Assembly (NCBI GenBank): GCA_014871385.1
Contig: CM026425.1
Location: 11,198,267 to 11,262,266 of the forward strand
From: Ceratodon purpureus
Taxonomy: Eukaryota; Streptophyta; Bryopsida; Pseudoditrichales; Ditrichaceae
DNA: 64,000 bases
Direction of reading: 5' to 3'
Position numbers and translations under genes: made by a program
The notes under the pieces: model-generated
The model's database searches: none
What the model was told of the DNA's origin: nothing
Seen by the model: only the letters and a program-made list of their open reading frames with translations
In this document: piece after piece, positions 1,712 to 37,704 of the stretch
Numbering within the stretch: position 1 is the first letter of the stretch
Layout: every line of letters begins with the position of its first letter

Positions 1712-3182
1712 CTATTTCATTGAGATATCAATGTCTAACATAGGTACTTAAATTATCTTCTTTTGTTGAATGGGTTGAGAATATGCCAAAGGTCATGTAC
1801 CCTTTATTATCTTTCTCTTTATTTCATTATATGTTGAATGGCTATGGTAATTGAGATTTCAATGTCTAACATGGCTACTTAGATTATCATTTTTTGTTTG
1901 AATGGGTGTGAGAATATGCCAAAGGATATCTTTATTTCATTATTAACTAGCTTGACCCGTGCCGGCCACCGGCACATAAATTTCAAAATAATTATTAAAA
2001 GCTCTAAGGGCATCCTCAATGCAAACGGCAAAAGGGCCCTCTAAAACTAAATCTATCTATAGACTGGCATAAAATTAGAAATCAAAATTACCATCATCAA
2101 AAGCGCATTCAAGTAAAGGTGAGATATTTTTTATGAAAATAAAATTGTGAAATTAGCACATAGGTGAAATGTTCCATTGAAAATACCACATTTTCAAAAA
2201 TTAAAGGGAGTGCACCAAATTCCCTCTATATTTCTAAAATTCCATCTATATTTCTAAAATTTAGAGGGAGTGTGAGAGAATATTTCCATTTTTATTCAAA
2301 ATTTGGTGCACTCCCTTTATAATTTGAAAACGTGGTGTTTTCAATGAGAGATTTCACCTAGGTCCCAATTTCTCAAAAAAAATTTGTTGAGAAATATCTC
2401 AAGTTTGTTTTCATATGCTTTTAATGATGGTAATTTCAAATTCTAATTTTAAGGCAATCCAAAGATAACTTTTAATATAGAAGGCCCTTTTGTGGTGTGC
2501 ATTAAGGATGCCCTAAGGAGGCTTGGTAGTGAGATAGGATCACCAAAAAGAGAAATCATAACTTAGTTGGACTTTTAAAATTAATTCAAATGAAGTGGTG
2601 AAATGGTTCATCAATAAGTTCTAAAAGTAATTAAATGTTTGCTATTGTGGCTTCCGAAAAGGCAATATGAAGTTCAATGTGGCTAGATACATTTGTCAAC
2701 CCTCGAAAGGGTTTTGTGTTCAAACATTCACATGTTTCCCTTGTCCTTTCGGCTCCTCCAAGCAAGTTCCATGTGTAAAATGTCATGTGGGCACACACAA
2801 ACACACAAACACCGTTCTTCCTTATAATAGAGATTGAATGGCCCAAGGGTAATTGAGATTTCAATGTCTAACGTGGTTATTAAAATTAAGATTTTTTGTA
2901 TGAATGGGTATGAGAATGCCAAAGGTAATGTATTTTTTGGTTTATTTCAAAAAAGTGGAGACAAAAGGCCAAGACAAAAAGGAGACAATAAAAGCGACCA
3001 CGAAAAAAGTGATGACGAAAAAATCTTTGAAAAATCTGGTGTAAAACCCTCTCCGAGTTACCTCGTCGACAGAATAATAAAAATAATAAAGAGTACATGG
3101 CCTTTGGCATGCTTAGACCCATTTAGACAAAAAAATGATAATTTAAGTAGGAAAGTTAGACATTGAAATCTCAATGAAATAG
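1712..3182. mobile_element. Long-TIR element with internal TIR copies, split by a Helitron
   Basis: The left terminus CTATTTCATTGAGATATCAA at 1712 matches, inverted, the end at about 3182. The inverted match runs about 90-100 bases, through a GGGTTGAGAATATGCCAAAGG-like block on the left and its counterpart near 3095-3125 on the right. Two further direct copies of the left TIR block lie at about 1845-1930 and 2845-2930. A Helitron occupies 1947-2833. Without it the element is about 580 bp. No coding sequence is recognised, and no clear target duplication could be assigned. Long TIRs could suggest a Mutator-like (MULE-type) element, but I cannot show the 9-11 bp duplication. Confidence 0.65.
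1947..2833 (-). mobile_element. Non-autonomous Helitron, family 1, copy A
   Basis: Read on the minus strand the element starts TCTCTATTATAAGG at 2833. It ends with a GC-rich hairpin (GTGCCGG, loop TGG, CCGGCAC), then a short spacer and CTAG at 1950-1947. On the plus strand it sits between host A (1946) and host T (2834), the A|T insertion site expected of Helitrons. The other copies of the host repeat unit (around 1805-1850) lack the insert, which gives a natural empty site. At 887 bp with no Rep/helicase reading frame, it is a non-autonomous copy. A second copy lies at 4568-5486. Confidence 0.9.
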
Positions 3183-8390: not shown

Positions 8391-9980
8391 ATGGCGTGTT
8401 CAGATAGTAAACCGAATTTAAGAGAATTCAAGAGTACGTCTCTGAAGAAACTTAGCGACACATTCCAAGGGTTTGTGGATTCCCTTGCGGACGAGACTTG
8501 TTTCAATTCAGTACATGATGTTGTTATGAACCGTGAGCATCAAAAAGAACTAACATACCGGTCAAAGATTGTGGAAAACCTAGTGAAAAGTATTAGAGAG
8601 CAAGTTCCGTACATTCAAGAAAATTTGACGGAATGTGATGATATCCTCAGTTTGGCATGTGACAATCCGCCCTCTGAAGAAGACGTGATGGACGCTACAA
8701 GAATGGATTCGATTGCGAATGTTAATGTTGATGTGGGAGGAGCAAGGAATCCAAATCCAATCGCAGAGTTTAAAGCAATGAATCAGGGACGAACATGTCG
8801 GCATCATTGTAGCCATCACCATGAGGTAATGGACAATACGCTATGGACAAAACTGCCAAGAGAGGTGGTACAACATGTTTGTTCATTCCTTCCTTTTTCC
8901 AAAACATTGGAATTGCAGAAGTTATGCAAGCCCTGGTCAAGGATGCCCATGGCCACAAATTTCAGACAATCTTGTGCCAAGGCTCATGACGATTTATTCG
9001 GTATGTTGATTTTAGACAGACGTAATGAATCATTTCGGATTGCTGTATCTAATTCCAAGCATACTGAGTGGTTCCATTTGGAACTCAAAGACATCCCTGC
9101 ATCTCGTTATCGTTATGGGTGGTCCGGTAACCGCATGAATCTTTTTGCACACGATGGAGGATTGATAAGCATTCTGCCATGTTCTTTCGGGGAGTACACG
9201 GAACCTCCCAACATTTTCATATTCAATCCATTAACTGGCGATAAGAAAAATATTCCTCTATCAAGTTTTACTTCAAGCAAGGATATTTGTGACACGGAGG
9301 CCATTCTCATGCAGTTGATAGTGGATTCAGAAACTGGATGTTACGAATTGGTTTTAGTGACTCAAAGTGGAAAGTTCAGTAGAGAAGGGAAAATATACTG
9401 TTCAGAAAGATATGATTCCAAGACCAAGCTTTGGAGTGCATTGGACTCTGGTTTTATATTTGGAGTTGGTGTTATAAATGAGTCGCGTCGTGATGTATAT
9501 TTTGACTGTTGCTCAAAGCAGTTATGTAAGGATGATAGAAAACCTATCGAAGACCAAAACCATGCACCTGAAGTTAGAAATCCTCAATTTCTGACATTTG
9601 TGAAAGATCATCGGTTTAAGATTGATTCCCCACCTCATAATCATATGGATGGCTATATTTTAGAGCTTTCAGAGAGTTATTGGTACAACGGCTGGGCCGC
9701 TTTGTCCACACGGAGGTTTCCAATGGCGGAGCTACAAAGAGACGTCAAAACAAGGTTATTTGCTTCTCAACGTTATGTACTTGTGGTTGCAGATGATAAA
9801 CCTTCAGAGGTGTTTGAGCATCGTCATCAACGCATGCTCCTATTCGACAGGAAAACTTGTAAAGCATCATACGACATTCCCAATTTTTGGGGAGAGGACG
9901 ATGTGATGTATAATAGCTCAACGTTTTTAGATGGTCATGTACATGTAATGTGTGATTTGAAATGGAATGTTATTCCTTGA
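8391..9980 (+). CDS. F-box protein with C-terminal kelch/β-propeller-like region (copy 1)
   Basis: Single-exon 529-codon reading frame. I chose the ATG at 8391 (MACSD) because the paralogue at 22331 has the same start in the same context; an in-frame upstream ATG at 8352 lies in the presumed leader. The N-terminal third (residues 10-90) is helical and charged. An F-box follows at about residues 152-190, with the signature LPREVVQHVCSFLPF. The C-terminal part, from about residue 210, resembles plant F-box associated/galactose-oxidase-like repeats (for example IFNPLTGDKKNIPL). Such proteins typically act as substrate receptors of SCF ubiquitin ligases through Skp1 binding; the target is unknown. 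The frame is uninterrupted, and conservation with copy 2 over more than 500 residues suggests it is functional. It is one of three local copies, all on this strand. Confidence 0.88.
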   Translation: MACSDSKPNLREFKSTSLKKLSDTFQGFVDSLADETCFNSVHDVVMNREHQKELTYRSKIVENLVKSIREQVPYIQENLTECDDILSLACDNPPSEEDVMDATRMDSIANVNVDVGGARNPNPIAEFKAMNQGRTCRHHCSHHHEVMDNTLWTKLPREVVQHVCSFLPFSKTLELQKLCKPWSRMPMATNFRQSCAKAHDDLFGMLILDRRNESFRIAVSNSKHTEWFHLELKDIPASRYRYGWSGNRMNLFAHDGGLISILPCSFGEYTEPPNIFIFNPLTGDKKNIPLSSFTSSKDICDTEAILMQLIVDSETGCYELVLVTQSGKFSREGKIYCSERYDSKTKLWSALDSGFIFGVGVINESRRDVYFDCCSKQLCKDDRKPIEDQNHAPEVRNPQFLTFVKDHRFKIDSPPHNHMDGYILELSESYWYNGWAALSTRRFPMAELQRDVKTRLFASQRYVLVVADDKPSEVFEHRHQRMLLFDRKTCKASYDIPNFWGEDDVMYNSSTFLDGHVHVMCDLKWNVIP

Positions 9981-22330: not shown

Positions 22331-24642
22331 ATGGCGTGTTCAGATGGTAAACTGAAAAGAGAATTCAAGAGTAAGGCAATGAAGAAACTGAGCGACACAT
22401 TTCAAGGGTTTGTGGATTCGCTTGCGGACGAGACTTGTTTCAATTCAGTACTGGATGTTGTTGTGAACCGTGATCATAAAAGGGAACTTACAAACCGGTT
22501 GAAGATTGTGGAAAACCTGGTGAAAAGTATTAGAGAGCAAGTTCCATACATTCAAGAGAGTTTGACGGTATGTGATGAAATCCTCAGTTTGGCATGTGGC
22601 AACTCCGCTTCTCAGGAAGACGTGGTGTGTGCTCCGAGAACGGGCTTGGATGTTGGTGTGAGAGGAGCAAGCAATCCAAACGCAGAGTCCATAGCAGTGT
22701 ATCAGAGACGAGCCCGCCCACTGCGGCGAGGGAACACATGTCGGCATTATTGTAGCCATCATCGAGAGGTGATGGATCATACGTTGTGGAGGAAACTACC
22801 GAGAGAGATGGTGCAACATATTTGTGCATTCCTTCCATTTTCCAAAACGTTAAAGCTGCAGAAGTTATGCAAGCCCTCCTGGGCAAGGATGCCCATGGCC
22901 ACGAATTTCAGACAATCCTGCGATATGGCTCATGACGATTTGTTTGGTATATTGATGGCCAGCGGTTTTGATTCATATCGCATGGCCGTATCAAATTCTA
23001 TGCATACTGAGTGGTTCGATTTGGAATTGTACGACATCCATGCAGATTACTTTGCGGTGAACTACGATGACAAGGGGGTGTAAGCGTGGTAAAGTGGACC
23101 AAAAAAGTGCTTAACTATTTGTCAGTTTCAGCCCTTTTGCAAAAATTGCACAAAAGTGACGGAAAGATGTGATTGAAGTCAATTTTTTTTGCTAATATGG
23201 ATTCTCAACTTGTTTTTCTACAACTTGGAAAAGTTTCGTGCAAAGTAGACACTTTAAAGTTATTGTATGAAGGCTTTAAATCCAAGCAAAGTGAATGCAG
23301 TCATTTGGAAAAGTGAACATAACGGTTTAGGGTTTTGTCCGAAATCACTTTTAATTTTGCGGTGCCTTCTGTATATTTAAGAGGTATTCCAAAATAGTCA
23401 ATTCATATACTCATTAATTGGTTTAGCGTTCCAAAAGTACCGCAAGGATGTTATTTAAGAGGGTCACTTCCACGGTACTTTTTGTCACTTTTTTTTCACC
23501 GAACATTGTTTTTTAAATTGAAAAAAACATCCTCTAAAGACAACAGAGGGCACTAGATGAAGAAATCAAGACTTTGGAAAAGTTTATTTTCATGATTTAC
23601 AACTAGTGGTCAAATTTAGTTTCAATTCAGGATGTTTTTTTTATGAAGATGTGTGTAAGATACCTTGCGACACCCTGAAAAGTGACTAAAATGCTCAAAA
23701 ACTACACCAAAATGCTCAAAATCAACTTTGAGCTTTTAAAAACAGCACACTTCATATTCACTTGTTAGTGGTCACATGTTGCACTTTGTGGTCCACTTTA
23801 TTGTGCTTACACCCAAGGAACTTTTTGCACACGATGGAGGATTGGTGTGCATTCTACAAAGTTGCTTTGGAGGTTATGAACCTCCCAACATTTTCGTGTT
23901 TAATCCATTAACCAGGGATGAAAGGGCTATTCCTCTATCAAGTTTTACTTGTAGCAAGGATATGAATGATACGGATGCCATTCTATTGCAGCTGATAGTG
24001 GATTCAAAAACCGGATGCTACGAGTTGCTTTTGGTGACTCAAAGTGGAAAGTACAGTGGAGAAGGGAAAGTATATTGCTCAGAAAGATATGATTCCAAGA
24101 GCAAGCTCTGGAGTTCATTGGACTCTGGTTTCATATTTGGAGATGGTGTTGTTGATAACGAGCGATGTGAAGTTTACTTTGACTGCTGCTCAAAGCAGCT
24201 ATGTACGTTTGATGGTCAACCTTTTGACGGCAGAGCACTCGAGAGCAATCGTGAATCTCTCACATTTGTGAGAGATCATCGGTTTGAGATTGATTGGGAT
24301 GAATACCGGTATGACCGTTTGCTAAGGGTGTCAGAGAGTGTTTGGGACAACGGATGGATTACGAGATCTACAGAAATATTCCCAATGGAGGAGCCACCAG
24401 ATGGCCTCACAACAAGGTTACTTGCATGTCAACGGTATTTACTTGTGGCTTCAGATGATGCGCCTTCGGATGTGTTTGCGCATCGTCATCAACGCATGCT
24501 CTTGTTCGATAGGAAAACTCGTGAAGCAGCATACGACATTCCGAACTTTTGGAGAGAGTCCGATTTGGAGGATGGTGGCGCAGAGTTTCTACATCGTAGA
24601 GTTCATTTAATGTGTGATCTGAAATGGAATGTTGTTCCTTGA
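22331..24642 (+). CDS. F-box protein, copy 2, with a transposon-derived candidate intron
   Basis: Paralogue of 8391-9980. The proposed exons are 22331-23077 (249 codons) and 23818-24642 (274 codons plus stop), giving 523 residues against 529 in copy 1. The F-box (WRKLPREMVQHICAFLPF) is at about residues 154-190, and the C-terminal β-propeller-like region follows (IFVFNPLTRDERAIPL). Exon 2 codes without interruption down to the conserved CDLKWNVVP end. The two parts are separated by a TIR transposon. Without splicing, translation stops at TAA 23081-23083 after 250 residues. With splicing at GTGTAAG and CCCAAG the frame is restored as DDKG|ELFAHDGG. If the element is not spliced, this is a recent pseudogene with a functional F-box fragment lacking most of the substrate-binding region. 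Confidence 0.8.
23076..23814 (+). mobile_element. TIR element family 1, copy 1, acting as a candidate intron
   Basis: 739 bp, flanked by perfect 4-bp duplications AAGG (23072-23075 and 23815-23818). Both termini are GGGTGTAAGC followed by an inverted core ending AAAGTGGACC. Removing the element and one AAGG gives an open frame (GAC AAG GAA CTT), so the empty site is certain. There is no coding capacity. Copies 2 (25594-26333) and 3 (34987-35612) share the core TIR AGCACAATAAAGTGGACC and the interior. As an intron, the donor lies in the TIR (23078) and the acceptor AG is bases 2-3 of the host duplication (23816-23817). Confidence 0.92.
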
Positions 24643-25593: not shown

Positions 25594-26333
25594 GGGGGGA
25601 AGCACAATAAAGTGGACCACAAAAGTGGACGTCTCATTGTCAATTTCAGCCCTTTTGCAAAAATTGCACAAAAGTGATGGAAAGATGTAATTGAAGTCAA
25701 ATTTTTTTGCTAATATGGATTCTCAACTTGTTTTTCTACAACTTGAAAAAGTTTCGTGCAAAGTAGACACTTTTAAGTTATTGTATGAAGGCTTTAAATC
25801 CAAGCAAAGTGAATGCAGTCATTTGTAAAAGTGGCTGTAAAAGAATCAAAAACTATCTCAAAATCACTTTTGATGAAGTTCAGCCCTCTGTATGTTTAAG
25901 AGGTATTCTAAAATAGTAATTTCATATACTCATTAATTAGTTTAGAGTTCCTAAAGTACCGCCGGGATGTTTTTTAGGAGGGTCACTTTGGCGGTACTTT
26001 TTGTGTGTTTTTTTTTACCGAACATTGTTTTTTAAATTGGAAAAAACATCCTCTAAAGACAATAGAGGGCTGTAAATGAAGAAATCAAGACTTTGGAAAA
26101 GTTCATTTTCATGATTTAGAACTAGTGGTCAAATTTAGTTTCAATTGAGGATATTCTGTTTATGAAGATGTGTTTAAGATACCTTATGACACCTTAGAAA
26201 GTGACTAAAATGCTCAAAAACTACACCAAAATGCTCAAAATCGGCTTTGAGCCTTCAAAAACAGCACACTTCATATTCACTTGTTAGTGGTCACATTTTG
26301 CACTTTGTGGTCCACTTTATTGTGCTCTCCCCC
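25594..26333 (+). mobile_element. TIR element family 1, copy 2
   Basis: 740 bp, in the same orientation as copy 1 and collinear with it over nearly the whole length. The ends are GGGGGGAAGCACAATAAAGT and the inverse of GGGGGAGAGCACAATAAAGT. Flanking 4-bp duplication TAAA (25590-25593 and 26334-26337). Unlike copy 1, its termini lack the GT dinucleotide that serves as splice donor there. It is non-coding. Confidence 0.92.
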
Positions 26334-26349
26334 TAAACTATTATTTTCA

Positions 26350-26440
26350 ATATTTAGCTTCAAATATGGGATGAGAGGCATATTTAGCTTCAAATATGGG
26401 ATGAGAGGCATATTTAGCTTCAAATATGGGATGAGAGGCC
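26350..26440. repeat. 30-bp tandem repeat, three near-identical units
   Basis: The unit contains ATATTTAGCTTCAAATATGG followed by GATGAGAGGC. It lies a few bases after TIR element copy 2. Its multiple-of-three length keeps a chance frame open. Confidence 0.92.
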
Positions 26441-32886: not shown

Positions 32887-33944
32887 GGTTTGCTTGTAAG
32901 ACTTGAACTAGAGAAGTTATGCAAGCCCTGTTGAAAGATGCCCATGGCCATGAACAATCATATGCAAAGGCCTTTAAGGATTTGTTTGGAATATTGATGA
33001 GTGAGAATGGTTATGGATTATCTCGGATTGCCATATCAAATTATAAGTATGCTGAGTGTCTTCAGTTGAAACTCAAGGACCTTCCTTTAGATCCTTTTGG
33101 GTGAATCAATGCGCACAAGGAACTTCTGAGACAAATGCCCTATTCTGAACCCCGGCCATGGTCACCTCTCAAATGTTCATTCATATCCAGTACATTTGAC
33201 ACGACTCATATATGCGCATGAGTGACTTGCATTAGGGTGGGACCTGAGTGCAATATTCTACTCAGAACGTTTTGCACATGATCGAGGATTGGTATGCATT
33301 GTGCCAAGTTATTTTAAGGTTTTGAGGCGTTGAAGGAACCTCCGAACATTTTCATATTCAATCCCTTAACCGGCGATAAAAGGGATATTCCTATATCAAG
33401 TTTTACTTGTAGCAAGGATAAGAATGACACGGAGGTCATTCTACTGCAGTTGATAGTGGATTCAAAAACAAGATGTTAACCCTTAAACGCCCAAGAGAGC
33501 CCAAGAGGCTCTTTCCCAACAAAATCTTATCTGTAGAATCTTCTCTTCTGTACTCAACTTTTCACTTGTATTTTGATATCAAACTCGTCATTTGTTATGA
33601 TGTATTCAAAAAGTGAAATGTTTCAATCCAAATCACAATTCGTATGATTGATTTTGTGCTTTGAAAGGATTTTGGTAGGTAGGTTGGGGTTGCACATAAC
33701 CTTGTAGGAGGTTGCAAGCTCATCATTGTTTGGTTCATTCATGATGCCAAGTTGAAAAAATGCACCGTTCATGATGCCCAAGTTCAAAAGATGTTATGAT
33801 CCAATTTTGGGTTGCCCGTTTCAGACCTCATGGGCGTTTAAGAGTTACAAATTAGTTTTGGTGACTCAAAGTAACAAGAAGTTCGGCAACGGTGCGGAAG
33901 TGTATTGCTCAAAAAGATATGACTCGAAGAGTAAGCTTTGGAGT
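32887..33944 (+). pseudogene. F-box gene, copy 3, decayed
   Basis: It opens with GTTTGCTTGTAAGACTTGA, matching the leader of copy 1 at 8157, then jumps at about 32910 to mid-coding sequence (GAAGTTATGCAAGCCCTG, as at 8918), so the start and F-box are deleted. Collinear coding remnants follow: 32919-33104 (FKDLFGILMSENGY..., stop), 33270-33476 (FAHDRGLVCI; NPLTGDKRDIPISSF-like with frameshifts), and 33848-33944 (LVLVTQSNKKFG...VYCSKRYDSKSKLWS). Unrelated DNA sits at about 33105-33265, and a TIR element at 33477-33847. Similarity ends at about 33945. It is clearly non-functional. Confidence 0.88.
33477..33847. mobile_element. TTAA-family TIR element inserted in the F-box pseudogene
   Basis: Left flank and end: GATGT-TA-ACCCTTAAACGCCCA. 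Right end and flank: TGGGCGTTTAAGAGT-TA-CAAATT. The intact F-box copies read GATGTTACGAATT and GATGCTACGAGTT at this point, so the pre-insertion site was GATGTTACAAATT. This fits a TA (or TTA) duplication, with 15-base TIRs. The interior is non-coding and includes a GATGCCCAAGTT-type duplication near 33742-33785. Confidence 0.85.
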
Positions 33945-34986
33945 ACAGTACCCACCAACAAGTTTACGTTCATTCAACTTTTCAAAGAAATGCCAAGATG
34001 GATTCGGTTTTAGCATGATTGTGGGCATTGTGACCGTCCCGATTTCTCAATCTCACTGCCTAGGTTACCTAAATCAGGCTCAGATTTTCGAGGGTGAATC
34101 GTACAGTTCAGGCTCTCTCCGGCACTAAGAATTCAATAACAATTATGATAAAAATATTTTTGAAGTCTCTTTTATTGCAGTCGTTCCTTCTTTGAGTTAG
34201 CTTCGCCGTCCAAGTAAGAGCATGATTTTTACATTTTTTCCCACATGTGCATTTCTGGATTCCAGGCTCACCTCTAAACCATATGCCCATTTTTGCCTCC
34301 AATTTCATGCTCAAATACACATCCATTTCTGTCAATATTGATGCAATCAGTGCCAATATTCTCAACCATCTGCGAGAATCTTCAGTTGGGAACAACTTAA
34401 ACCGATCAGATTTACAAAAGCACTTCTCTCTGTGATGCCACAAGTCGATTCAAACGCCAGGGTCACGAAAAACCAGTTTCCTCCAGAAACGGCCCGGGCA
34501 CTAAAGAGTTAAGGTTTACCACGCAACCATATCCAAAATATGGAATAGACGTTACCCCTTTTACATCGCAATGGTCCATGAGAGCGACGCTTTCCCACTT
34601 CTTCTTGTGATCCATAGTTGGTGCATCAAAGTTCCTTCGAACGGAATGGTTATTGCGGAGCGTAGGGTGCGCATTTGGGTTTGTTGTATCCTTGAAGTCG
34701 AATTTCGGAAGTGGCCACTAGGAAGCTCCTTGGAATTGACGTCGTGGTAACAATTCTCCTCGTTGTTGCAATTCAAACCTAGCCTCCTTAACAGATAGAA
34801 CTTCATGACGAGTGAGATTAGTTCCAATCTTCACCAGCCACACCATAGGAAAAGCCAGCCAATCCAATACCCAAAACTTCGGCCCCCCTTTCACGCAAGT
34901 TGCAACGGCTAATATCATCATGGCAGAACCCTAACTCTGCAAGGACAATACGTTTGGTGTGAAAGTCCTTCTTTCTACCGGTATAC
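33945..34986. other. Gene-free DNA with transposon ends
   Basis: One TTAA-type right end (GGGCACTAAAGAG plus TTAA) lies at 34496-34512, and a similar GGCACTAAGAATTC at about 34121. Minus-strand frames between 34560 and 34985 (including a stretch with RIVLAELGFCHDDIS) look protein-like but shift frame and match no family I know; they could be a degraded coding sequence. Confidence 0.45.
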
Positions 34987-35612
34987 GGAGAAGAGCACAA
35001 TAAAGTGGACCACAAAGTGCAACATGTGATCACTAGGAAGTGAATATGAAGTGTGCTGTTTTTTAAAGCTCAAAGCTGATTTTGAGCATTTTGGTGTAGT
35101 TTTTGAGCATTTTAGTCACTTCTTAGTCACTTGAAATTGACAAATAGCATTAGGGGAAAAATCAGGTCTCCAATGGGCCTTGTAAGACAGCCCGGATTAG
35201 GTGAGCATCCTGTCCGCTGACACTTCTCTTCGAAATCTCATTGGTCGATATCCAGCCCGCTGACAACAAAATTCGCCCCGCTGACAACAGGATTCGCTGA
35301 CAATAGGATCCGGTACTGTCCAATGGGGTGACAGCAGTGGGCACACGGTCGGTGACAGTGTCATTACTGCTTGTATTGTCCAATGGGGGGGTGGGGTGGG
35401 GAAAGGAAGCGATTGGCTGGACCCCCCAAATGCCAACTGCTGGCACTGCTGGCAGCATCTGGCGACCTGCTGGCACCATTGGTGCCAGCAGGTAAAGTGC
35501 ACGGGCATGGCCTAATTTTCAGGCACGGATTCCGACCAAAGGCCCATAGGAGACCCCAATCTTCCCCTAATGGATAAGCACTTTTTTACTCCTCTTTATT
35601 GTGCTTCTCTCC
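34987..35612 (-). mobile_element. TIR element family 1, copy 3, internally deleted and carrying a nested element
   Basis: Flanking 4-bp duplication ATAC (34983-34986 and 35613-35616). Ends: GGAGAAGAGCACAATAAAGT and the inverse of GGAGAGAAGCACAATAAAG. The first 160 bases are the reverse complement of the right end of copies 1 and 2 (GTGATCACTAGGAAGTGAAT). The last 40 match their left end (AAAAAAGTGCTTA). The element proper is only about 200 bp because the middle is deleted; the rest is a nested family 2 element. It interrupts the 5' end of the GNAT frame that follows. Confidence 0.88.
35149..35571. mobile_element. TIR element family 2, nested in copy 3 of family 1
   Basis: Ends CATTAGGGGAAAAATC and the inverse of CATTAGGGGAAGATTGGGG, with inverted blocks GGTCTCC and GGGCCTT. 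The GC-rich interior has repeated CCGCTGACA, TGCTGGCA and ATTGGTGCCAGCA motifs. A second copy is at 43780-44095. The target duplication is ambiguous. It is non-coding. Confidence 0.8.
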
Positions 35613-36242
35613 ATACGTGGACGCGAGCGTGCCTCTTGCTCCCCTAAAATTACCATCACTGGCTCAAGGTTGAGGAGTCATTGTTTGATTGACTCCAAGC
35701 GATGCAAAGTTATCTTTGCAACCGATTCTCAGGGTTCTTTTGTAGCGTATTGCTTCTATGTGAAGTTTCATCTAACTCTTGAGCACGATGTCGCTCTTCA
35801 ACACCCTCCACCACGGTCTCGACCGTTAATGTGGGTCACTAAGCTTATCGTCAAGTCTGATTGTAGAGGCCGTGGAGTGGCGACGCAACTCTTATGGTGC
35901 AGTTGGCAGGATGGGACAAACATAGGCATTTGCTTAGTTACATCCCATCCCCATGCGATCTTGGCTTTGCAAAGAGCCATACATTCTATTGTCAATCTAG
36001 ATGTGATCTCCTCTTGGGCGAAAGTTCTACTCAGAGCATGTAGAGTCCCTTGCTTACATGGATTCGTTATAGGACCGCAGGGCCGGCCATCATCGATTGC
36101 TCAAAGTGGCTTCTACGCGGATCACAAAGAAGTCATTGCATCCAAGAATTCTTTAGATTCTTGGCAACTGAGAGACTTAGAGGAAGGCGAGGAGTACGTG
36201 ACAGTGGTGATGGAGGGCACAAGCCCACATCTTGGAGAATAG
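35613..36242 (+). CDS. GNAT-family acetyltransferase-like frame, 5' end disrupted by a transposon
   Basis: The open frame continues without a stop to TAG-adjacent TTGGAGAATAG at 36242. About 210 residues are similar to the complete GNAT at 37033-37704. The acetyl-CoA binding motif A is WVTKLIVKSDCRGRGVATQL, with R-x-x-G-x-A (RGRGVA), and the distinctive C-terminal SWQLRDLEEGEEYV block is kept. The 5' end was cut by TIR element copy 3. Joining the flanks over the ATAC duplication keeps the frame open upstream to a TAA, but I find no ATG there, and the first internal ATG is at MWVTKL just before motif A. It is therefore either a broken gene or one whose first exon is elsewhere. Intronless over its visible length. 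Confidence 0.6.
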   Translation: MRGRERASCSPKITITGSRLRSHCLIDSKRCKVIFATDSQGSFVAYCFYVKFHLTLEHDVALQHPPPRSRPLMWVTKLIVKSDCRGRGVATQLLWCSWQDGTNIGICLVTSHPHAILALQRAIHSIVNLDVISSWAKVLLRACRVPCLHGFVIGPQGRPSSIAQSGFYADHKEVIASKNSLDSWQLRDLEEGEEYVTVVMEGTSPHLGE

Positions 36243-36777: not shown

Positions 36778-37032
36778 TAATTTTACTTTGCTTTTACTTA
36801 TTGAGTTCAATTATTAGTGTACAAGTAGTTCTTTTGCTTTATAATATTTTATTTCAAGTAGCTAATCAATATATTATACGGGAGAAAGAATTCTTATAAT
36901 TTTTTATTTAGATTCCACTCGTCCAAGGTTTGTTGAAGTTGGCTTTGTCTCCACACAAGGCTTTCTTAAAAACATATTTTTCATAGGAACGCAATCAAAC
37001 TTACTATATAGATTAGACTTAGTTCCAACAAA

Positions 37033-37704
37033 ATGGATTCTTTGAGCATATATACATTTTTTGATTATTATGGCCTTGAGGTGACATCTCATCAAGTAAA
37101 ACATTGTCAAGGTTTATATAACGCTTCATATGGGATCTGGAGCTCTAAAGGCCCTCAACCTGGTAACCATGTGACACTTAGCGTGAAAAAGTATAAAGAC
37201 CAATTCTTATTTGATCCCCATACATGTGGCATAGCCATGGCTCAAGATTCAAACCAAAATCATATTGCACAAGCAGTGTATGTGAAATTTCAATGCCGTG
37301 ATGGCAAACAAGTGCTCTGGATAACACAACTTGTTGTGCGGGAAGATCATCGCAACAAAGGTGTAGCCACACGCTTACTTCAATCACTTTGGACTAAAAA
37401 TGATCTATGGGCTTGCGGTTTGGTTTCCTGTCACCCCTATGCCGTCAAGTCATTAGAAGCAGCAACAAGCAAGAAATGCAACAAGGATTTAAGTATTCAA
37501 TATGCTAATGAATTCATTCAATGTAGTCACATTCCTTATGTACAAAATTGTGAGACCAAATTCAGTCTTACAAAATGTGCTATTCAAACACATTTTTATG
37601 TAGAACATGGTATGGTTGATACAATCCGCTCGAGTTTGGTTGATTGGCAACTTGGAAGCTTAGATGCCGGAGAGGAATACTTTGCTTTCACATTCAAGGA
37701 ATAA
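37033..37704 (+). CDS. GNAT-family acetyltransferase (intronless)
   Basis: Complete 223-codon single-exon frame from ATG 37033 (MDSLSIYTFF) to TAA 37704. The Gcn5-related N-acetyltransferase fold is indicated by β4/α3 motif A at residues about 96-118 (WITQLVVREDHRNKGVATRL), with the acetyl-CoA pyrophosphate-binding R-x-x-G-x-A (RNKGVA, 107-112). The HPYAVKSLEAAT segment then corresponds to motif B. The C-terminal block WQLGSLDAGEEYFAFTF is shared with the frame at 35613-36242. The substrate is unknown. From memory, this subgroup layout (GL/VSCHPYAV... FYVEH... LG.LDAGEEYFAF) is well represented in fungi, so transfer or a patchy ancient family is possible. No N-terminal targeting sequence is evident. 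Confidence 0.82.
   Translation: MDSLSIYTFFDYYGLEVTSHQVKHCQGLYNASYGIWSSKGPQPGNHVTLSVKKYKDQFLFDPHTCGIAMAQDSNQNHIAQAVYVKFQCRDGKQVLWITQLVVREDHRNKGVATRLLQSLWTKNDLWACGLVSCHPYAVKSLEAATSKKCNKDLSIQYANEFIQCSHIPYVQNCETKFSLTKCAIQTHFYVEHGMVDTIRSSLVDWQLGSLDAGEEYFAFTFKE

Follow-up and report, generated by a model that had tools for sequence, protein, structure and literature searches.

A recent non-autonomous TIR transposon insertion that probably truncates an F-box-like gene of the moss Ceratodon purpureus and carries introner-like candidate splice sites

The stretch of Ceratodon purpureus DNA analyzed here (64,000 nt, hereafter the window) contains an F-box-like gene, gene 2, whose coding sequence is interrupted by a DNA transposon. 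The initial annotation read this interruption as a recent intron gain, with a donor supplied by the TIR and an acceptor supplied by the duplicated target. Is the element removed in frame by the spliceosome, or does the insertion simply truncate the gene? We put at about 0.7 the probability that gene 2 is cut short by a recent non-autonomous TIR insertion, some weak or mixed splicing being possible. The recent insertion is strongly supported by the related copies, their duplications, the uninterrupted paralogues and the lack of private changes, whereas the intron gain is unproven, since the splice sites are weak, the frame rescue could well arise by chance and the targets of the family show no AG bias.

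The element (copy A, 739 bp, 23076-23814, forward strand) splits an otherwise open frame into a 5′ coding part, which runs from the ATG to the AAGG site (22331-23075), and a 3′ coding part up to the stop codon (23819-24642), both on the forward strand. It is flanked by a perfect AAGG target duplication (23072-23075 and 23815-23818). The 30-bp TIR arms are 83% complementary, and their outer 10 bp, GGGTGTAAGC on the left (23076-23085) and GCTTACACCC on the right (23805-23814; both as read on the forward strand), are perfect. Copy A was classified as a non-autonomous TIR transposon from these arms, from its relatives in the genome and from the lack of a long frame, the longest stop-free run inside it being 52 codons. 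Without splicing, the frame at the left junction reads AAG GGG GTG TAA. The left outer TIR is the origin of two candidate donors, GG/GTGTAAG (23078) and GT/GTAAGC (23080), and the right AAGG copy is the origin of the proposed acceptor AAG/G, from which exon 2 would start at 23818. If GGG/GTGTAAG is joined to CCCAAG/G, the product is the 522-residue empty-site protein plus one glycine. Hence, the element with its duplication, the TAA within two codons and the in-frame rejoining with one extra glycine are all as the initial annotation had described them.

The joined frame of gene 2 was compared with its relatives. Gene 1 (8391-9980, forward strand; 65% identical to gene 2) is uninterrupted at the site, as had been claimed, and so are the closest paralogue, which lies on another contig (C10), is 79% identical and forms one open frame across the whole query, and the relative P0001, whose sequence across the site is DKELFAHDGG. 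The paralogues differ in length at the insertion point, which lies in a variable loop. The empty site is ancestral, and the insertion is derived and very young. A genome search found no exact match to either the empty or the spliced junction of gene 2, hence no processed copy. The F-box matches of genes 1 and 2 are weak and below the Pfam curated cut-off (the gene 2 match covers 153-181); two distant relatives among the Ceratodon purpureus proteins, P0002 and P0003, are named F-box domain proteins.

That this is a transposon insertion is far beyond chance, as copy A is one of a large family and most of the fetched copies carry a perfect 4-bp duplication. A search of the 362.5-Mb genome with the element, in which the best 40 of 2552 first-look candidates were scored, gave at least 41 matches, i.e., the window copy, 39 copies at 96-98% identity and one at 84%. 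The TIR pattern with four free bases had 224 matches, of which one element can give up to two, and none in the reversed control. The duplication was perfect in 36 of the 40 fetched copies, which are the best matches to copy A and not a random draw; the exceptions were L016, L028, L035 and L048, the last being the 84-85% relative, and two pairs of fetched copies share their flanks and are later duplicates. Among the 39 close relatives, the motif GTGTAAGC is carried by 34 on the left, by 38 on the right and by 33 on both sides; the full GGGTGTAAGC was found at 26 left and 36 right ends, and the eight inner letters of the right outer TIR recur unchanged in 38 relatives. The TIRs, the fixed 4-bp duplication and the many dispersed similar copies are MITE-like features. 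Copy A resembles plant MITEs in being short, with no stop-free stretch above 52 codons, and in its TIRs, fixed-length duplication and near-identical copies; it differs from them in that its 4-bp duplication and TIR GGGTGTAAGC were matched here to no named family. No match was obtained in Rfam at the gathering threshold or in a comparison of the element with plasmids, and the exact inner-TIR pattern had no match in viral contigs.

Two further copies, of related types, lie in the window. Copy B (740 bp, 25594-26333, forward strand) is 88.6% identical to copy A over 719 bp and is flanked by TAAA, and copy C (626 bp, 34987-35612, reverse strand) has a different interior and is flanked by ATAC; each of the three copies has a perfect 4-bp duplication. 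The outer TIRs of copies B and C lack a GT, so that the donor could seem peculiar to copy A, yet this was rejected by the presence of GTGTAAGC at both ends in 33 relatives. At the very tips of the TIRs, roughly five bases are specific to each copy (GGGTG, GGGGG and GGAGA in copies A, B and C) but match between its two ends, as if these were evolving together. A 30-bp unit is repeated three times in perfect tandem at 26350-26439, beginning about 16 bp beyond the end of copy B. At 37012-37704 lies a GNAT acetyltransferase-like frame that exceeds the Pfam cut-off, and a weaker GNAT-similar frame (35571-36242) starts inside the end of copy C.

The age of the insertion was estimated from an alignment of copy A with its 39 relatives, L048 being left out. 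Copy A differs from the majority at 11 positions, all of them shared with another copy, and has no private change in its 739 bp, so that the insertion is very recent; the Poisson bound would place its divergence below about 0.4% at 95%. Hence, the survival of the frames on either side of the element carries no information on splicing. They are open on both sides, as had been noted, but their use as a sign of splicing fails, since youth explains them. Selection for splicing as the cause of the intact frames was rejected: with the upper bound of 3/739, about 1.57 kb of coding sequence and an assumed one in seven changes disabling, fewer than about one disabling change is expected even without constraint.

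In the reading that we prefer, the coding exon of gene 2 has very recently received a copy from a non-autonomous TIR family that is young and present in high copy number (~739 bp, TIR GGGTGTAAGC, 4-bp duplication). The frame of an unspliced transcript would then end at the TAA two codons after the target site, and the outcome would be either a shortened product of about 250 residues that lacks its C-terminal half or degradation of the mRNA. Such a loss is the default expectation, whereas efficient excision in frame from precisely the positions given in the initial annotation is not. Because the element is AT-rich and has a donor-like TIR and an AG-free end, some weak or mixed splicing is plausible.

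A rather unlikely alternative is that gene 2 had ceased to be expressed or needed before the element arrived, in which case copy A would be neutral and carried by a duplicate that was decaying anyway. The third copy of the cluster (32940-33950, forward strand; identified by tblastn and sequence) is indeed broken and carries two other TIR-like inserts, and no match to gene 1 or gene 2 was found among the annotated Ceratodon proteins searched, where the two other relatives were found, although that collection may lack them. The branch dN/dS of the 5′ part of gene 2 is 1.13, which also points in this direction. However, the value for the whole gene is 0.51 (dN 0.067, dS 0.131), like the 0.54 of the closest paralogue, and that of the 3′ part is 0.35; these values probably describe mostly the time before the insertion. 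Furthermore, the residues unique to gene 2 are outnumbered by those unique to gene 1 when P0001 (40 versus 73) or P0002 (22 versus 27) is the reference, and about equal them with P0003 (28 versus 27).

The broken third copy carries AAGGAACTT at 33117-33125 without the element. A 140-bp insert of the form CTGAG...CTCAG (33126-33265, flanks AACTT/AACGT) sits, on the 3′ side, five bases away from the point that corresponds to the gene 2 insertion, so that two unrelated inserts occupy a nearly identical spot in F-box-like paralogues. The second insert (33479-33845) has the TIR AC(C/T)CTTAAACGCCC and a TA or TTA duplication, and is presumably Tc1/mariner- or PIF-like.

How strong are the candidate splice sites? 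They were scored with Arabidopsis-like weights; these were used because a numeric moss splice table was not found in the portions of the literature consulted, and moss sites are described as resembling those of Arabidopsis in the accessible text of PMC1079823. On this scale the donor at 23078 reached -0.9 of a possible 8.3 bits, and 24% of the GTs of the window score equally or better, whereas the acceptor at 23818 reached -4.6 of a possible 12.2, and 67% of the AGs of the window score equally or better. By the same weights, the donor at 23080 slightly outscores the one at 23078, and with the acceptor at 23818 it shifts the frame. We then combined donors from 22901-23850 with acceptors from 23101-23990; of the 2989 pairs, 43 keep the frame and are free of stops, and among these the pair 23078/23818 ranks 32nd with the Arabidopsis-like weights. 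Both proposed sites are thus present where the initial annotation had placed them, but they are weak, and a slightly better, out-of-frame donor lies 2 nt away.

Other properties of the element are intron-like. Its GC content is 34%, versus 45% in the coding sequence, and moss introns have a lower GC content than coding sequence, as far as the available text of PMC1079823 goes. The last AG of the element lies 46 nt before its 3′ end, so that the AAG of the target would be the first AG met. According to the part of PMC8361020 at hand, Physcomitrium patens treats stretches of a foreign cDNA as introns and splices them out, one such stretch having about 40% GC, which makes splicing of the gene 2 element plausible. 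The cryptic moss donors described there are CAG/GT, and three of the four acceptors are CAG, unlike the GGG/GT donor and AAG acceptor of gene 2.

Partial or aberrant splicing at better sites, beside a retained message, is judged unlikely. The 23080 donor could be used with a CAG or TAG in exon 2, e.g., with exon starts at 23916 or 23955, and the resulting proteins would be in frame and lack 31 or 44 residues relative to the empty-site protein. These pairs rank 4th (exon from 23916) and 2nd (exon from 23955) of the 43 frame-keeping pairs, but the ranking depends on the Arabidopsis-like weights. In the extracts consulted, alternative splicing is described for maize Ds1 elements located in exons, and for moss the use of cryptic splice sites inside coding sequence is reported (PMC8361020).

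The intron gain proper, in which the spliceosome removes the element in frame with the TIR donor GG/GTGTAAG and the duplication acceptor CCCAAG/G and leaves one glycine in the variable loop, is quite unlikely. It is favored by the exact restoration of the frame, by a donor motif that is a family trait, by the lack of AG in the last 46 nt and by an insertion point at which the paralogues vary in length. In addition, the same division of labor is described, in the available part of PMC9860276, for the Introners of Chrysochromulina, although these lack TIRs. Against it stand the weak sites with the slightly better out-of-frame donor, the insertion age, which accounts for the intact frames, a rescue of the frame that is not improbable by chance, and targets devoid of AG bias; the last two points were quantified.

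When copy A was placed at 3019 positions of two coding sequences, some terminal frame-keeping, stop-free GT-AG pair was found at 384 of them (12.7%), and the same simulation with copies B and C gave 8 rescues each (0.3%). The exact rule, which requires an NAGN target, was satisfied at 195 of 2913 positions (6.7%), and under a first-AG rule a stop-free frame was kept at 969 of 2913 (33%). An NAGN target together with TIR position 3 always adds three bases, so that the single extra glycine follows from the architecture. The rescue of the frame at gene 2 is not beyond chance.

The targets of the family were analyzed in 51 distinct sites with a perfect duplication, namely copy A, 34 fetched copies, 12 of 30 loci found with the pattern and 4 of 5 later loci. 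The remaining pattern loci were already known (11), lacked a matching far end (5) or were second ends (2), and one later locus was dropped for lack of a matching far end; the 16 added sites were selected for matching far-end 4 bases (with at most 3 TIR mismatches) and are uninformative on the rate of perfect duplications. A preference for AG was not seen in these sites: NAGN on either strand was present in 6 of 51, versus 11.6% of background 4-mers, and AG on either strand in 17 of 51 duplications, versus 33% of the background. Copies in coding frames, to which the initial annotation had looked for a general pattern, do exist: seven of the 51 sites, one of them gene 2, fall within frames of at least 200 aa, a count from which short exons would escape and for which there is no genome baseline. 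Three of the seven are in or beside transposase frames, i.e., L034 interrupts an HTH_psq frame beside a DDE_1 frame, L046 adjoins a hAT-type frame, and the copy at L065 (1501-2239) splits a frame of 760 aa that encodes a DDE_Tnp_1_7 transposase domain, presumably of piggyBac type. Pfam gave no match for the frames at L032, L047 and L075. Two host-gene exons were recognized, in gene 2 and in an NB-ARC-like gene (L009), the Pfam scores of which are below the cut-off and the rest of which was read by eye; L009 has a 99.7% duplicate (L010/L054). A copy at L049 (3604-4342, G000 C8) lies in the P-loop frame of an NB-ARC-like gene, with a 99.7% segmental duplication about 150 kb away.

At L009 the TIR donor and the first AG would keep the frame with the loss of one codon. 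The first-AG rule keeps the frame at 4 of the 7 sites in frames of at least 200 aa, and at 5 of 8 if L009 is included, versus about one third expected, an excess that is not significant (binomial 0.09); moreover, several of the frames behind this count resemble transposase genes, and the rule would cost L032, L065 and L075 between 12 and 36 bases. Since most relatives have a donor-like TIR at both ends, the architecture is a repeatable property of the family and not a one-off. With GTGTAAGC at both TIRs and no AG in the last 34-46 nt of the ends, an exon insertion in either orientation would provide a donor and use the first AG of the target as the acceptor. That Ceratodon purpureus harbors the first Introner-like family of a land plant, in which a fixed share of exon insertions, gene 2 included, become in-frame introns at once, is very unlikely.

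The truncating insertion that we favor can be set beside two known systems. Maize Ds/Ds1 and other plant DNA transposons are reported to be spliced from exons. Like the gene 2 element, Ds/Ds1 is a plant cut-and-paste element in an exon that has potential splice sites near its ends and may be removed as an intron; it differs in its TIR and in the length of its duplication (8 bp for Ds), and its splicing is reported, whereas that of the gene 2 element is only predicted. For Introners, a survey of 3,325 eukaryote genomes reports none in land plants in its accessible text (PMC9860276, Gozashti et al.), and no title on a moss Introner was found among the open-licence papers listed. The same text describes 4-bp duplications in Symbiodinium and Chrysochromulina, TIRs in many families, Introners whose own sequence contains the 5′ splice site while the target provides the 3′ one, and the insertion of extra codons in Aureococcus (PMC9860276). 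To judge from this text, the gene 2 element is like Introners in its short duplication, its TIRs and the placing of its candidate splice sites, one in the element and one in the target. The Ceratodon family differs in that its sampled targets show no AG preference and that few copies were recognized in host-gene exons.

How new introns arise in land plants is the wider question, and the gene 2 site offers a clean test case for it: the insertion is of near-zero age, the paralogues are uninterrupted, the host is a moss, haploid for most of its life, and a single junction is predicted. If the element is spliced, the site would document the birth of a land-plant intron as it happens; if it is not, the site would show how often an ordinary transposon yields an introner-like architecture by chance, which would be a useful null.
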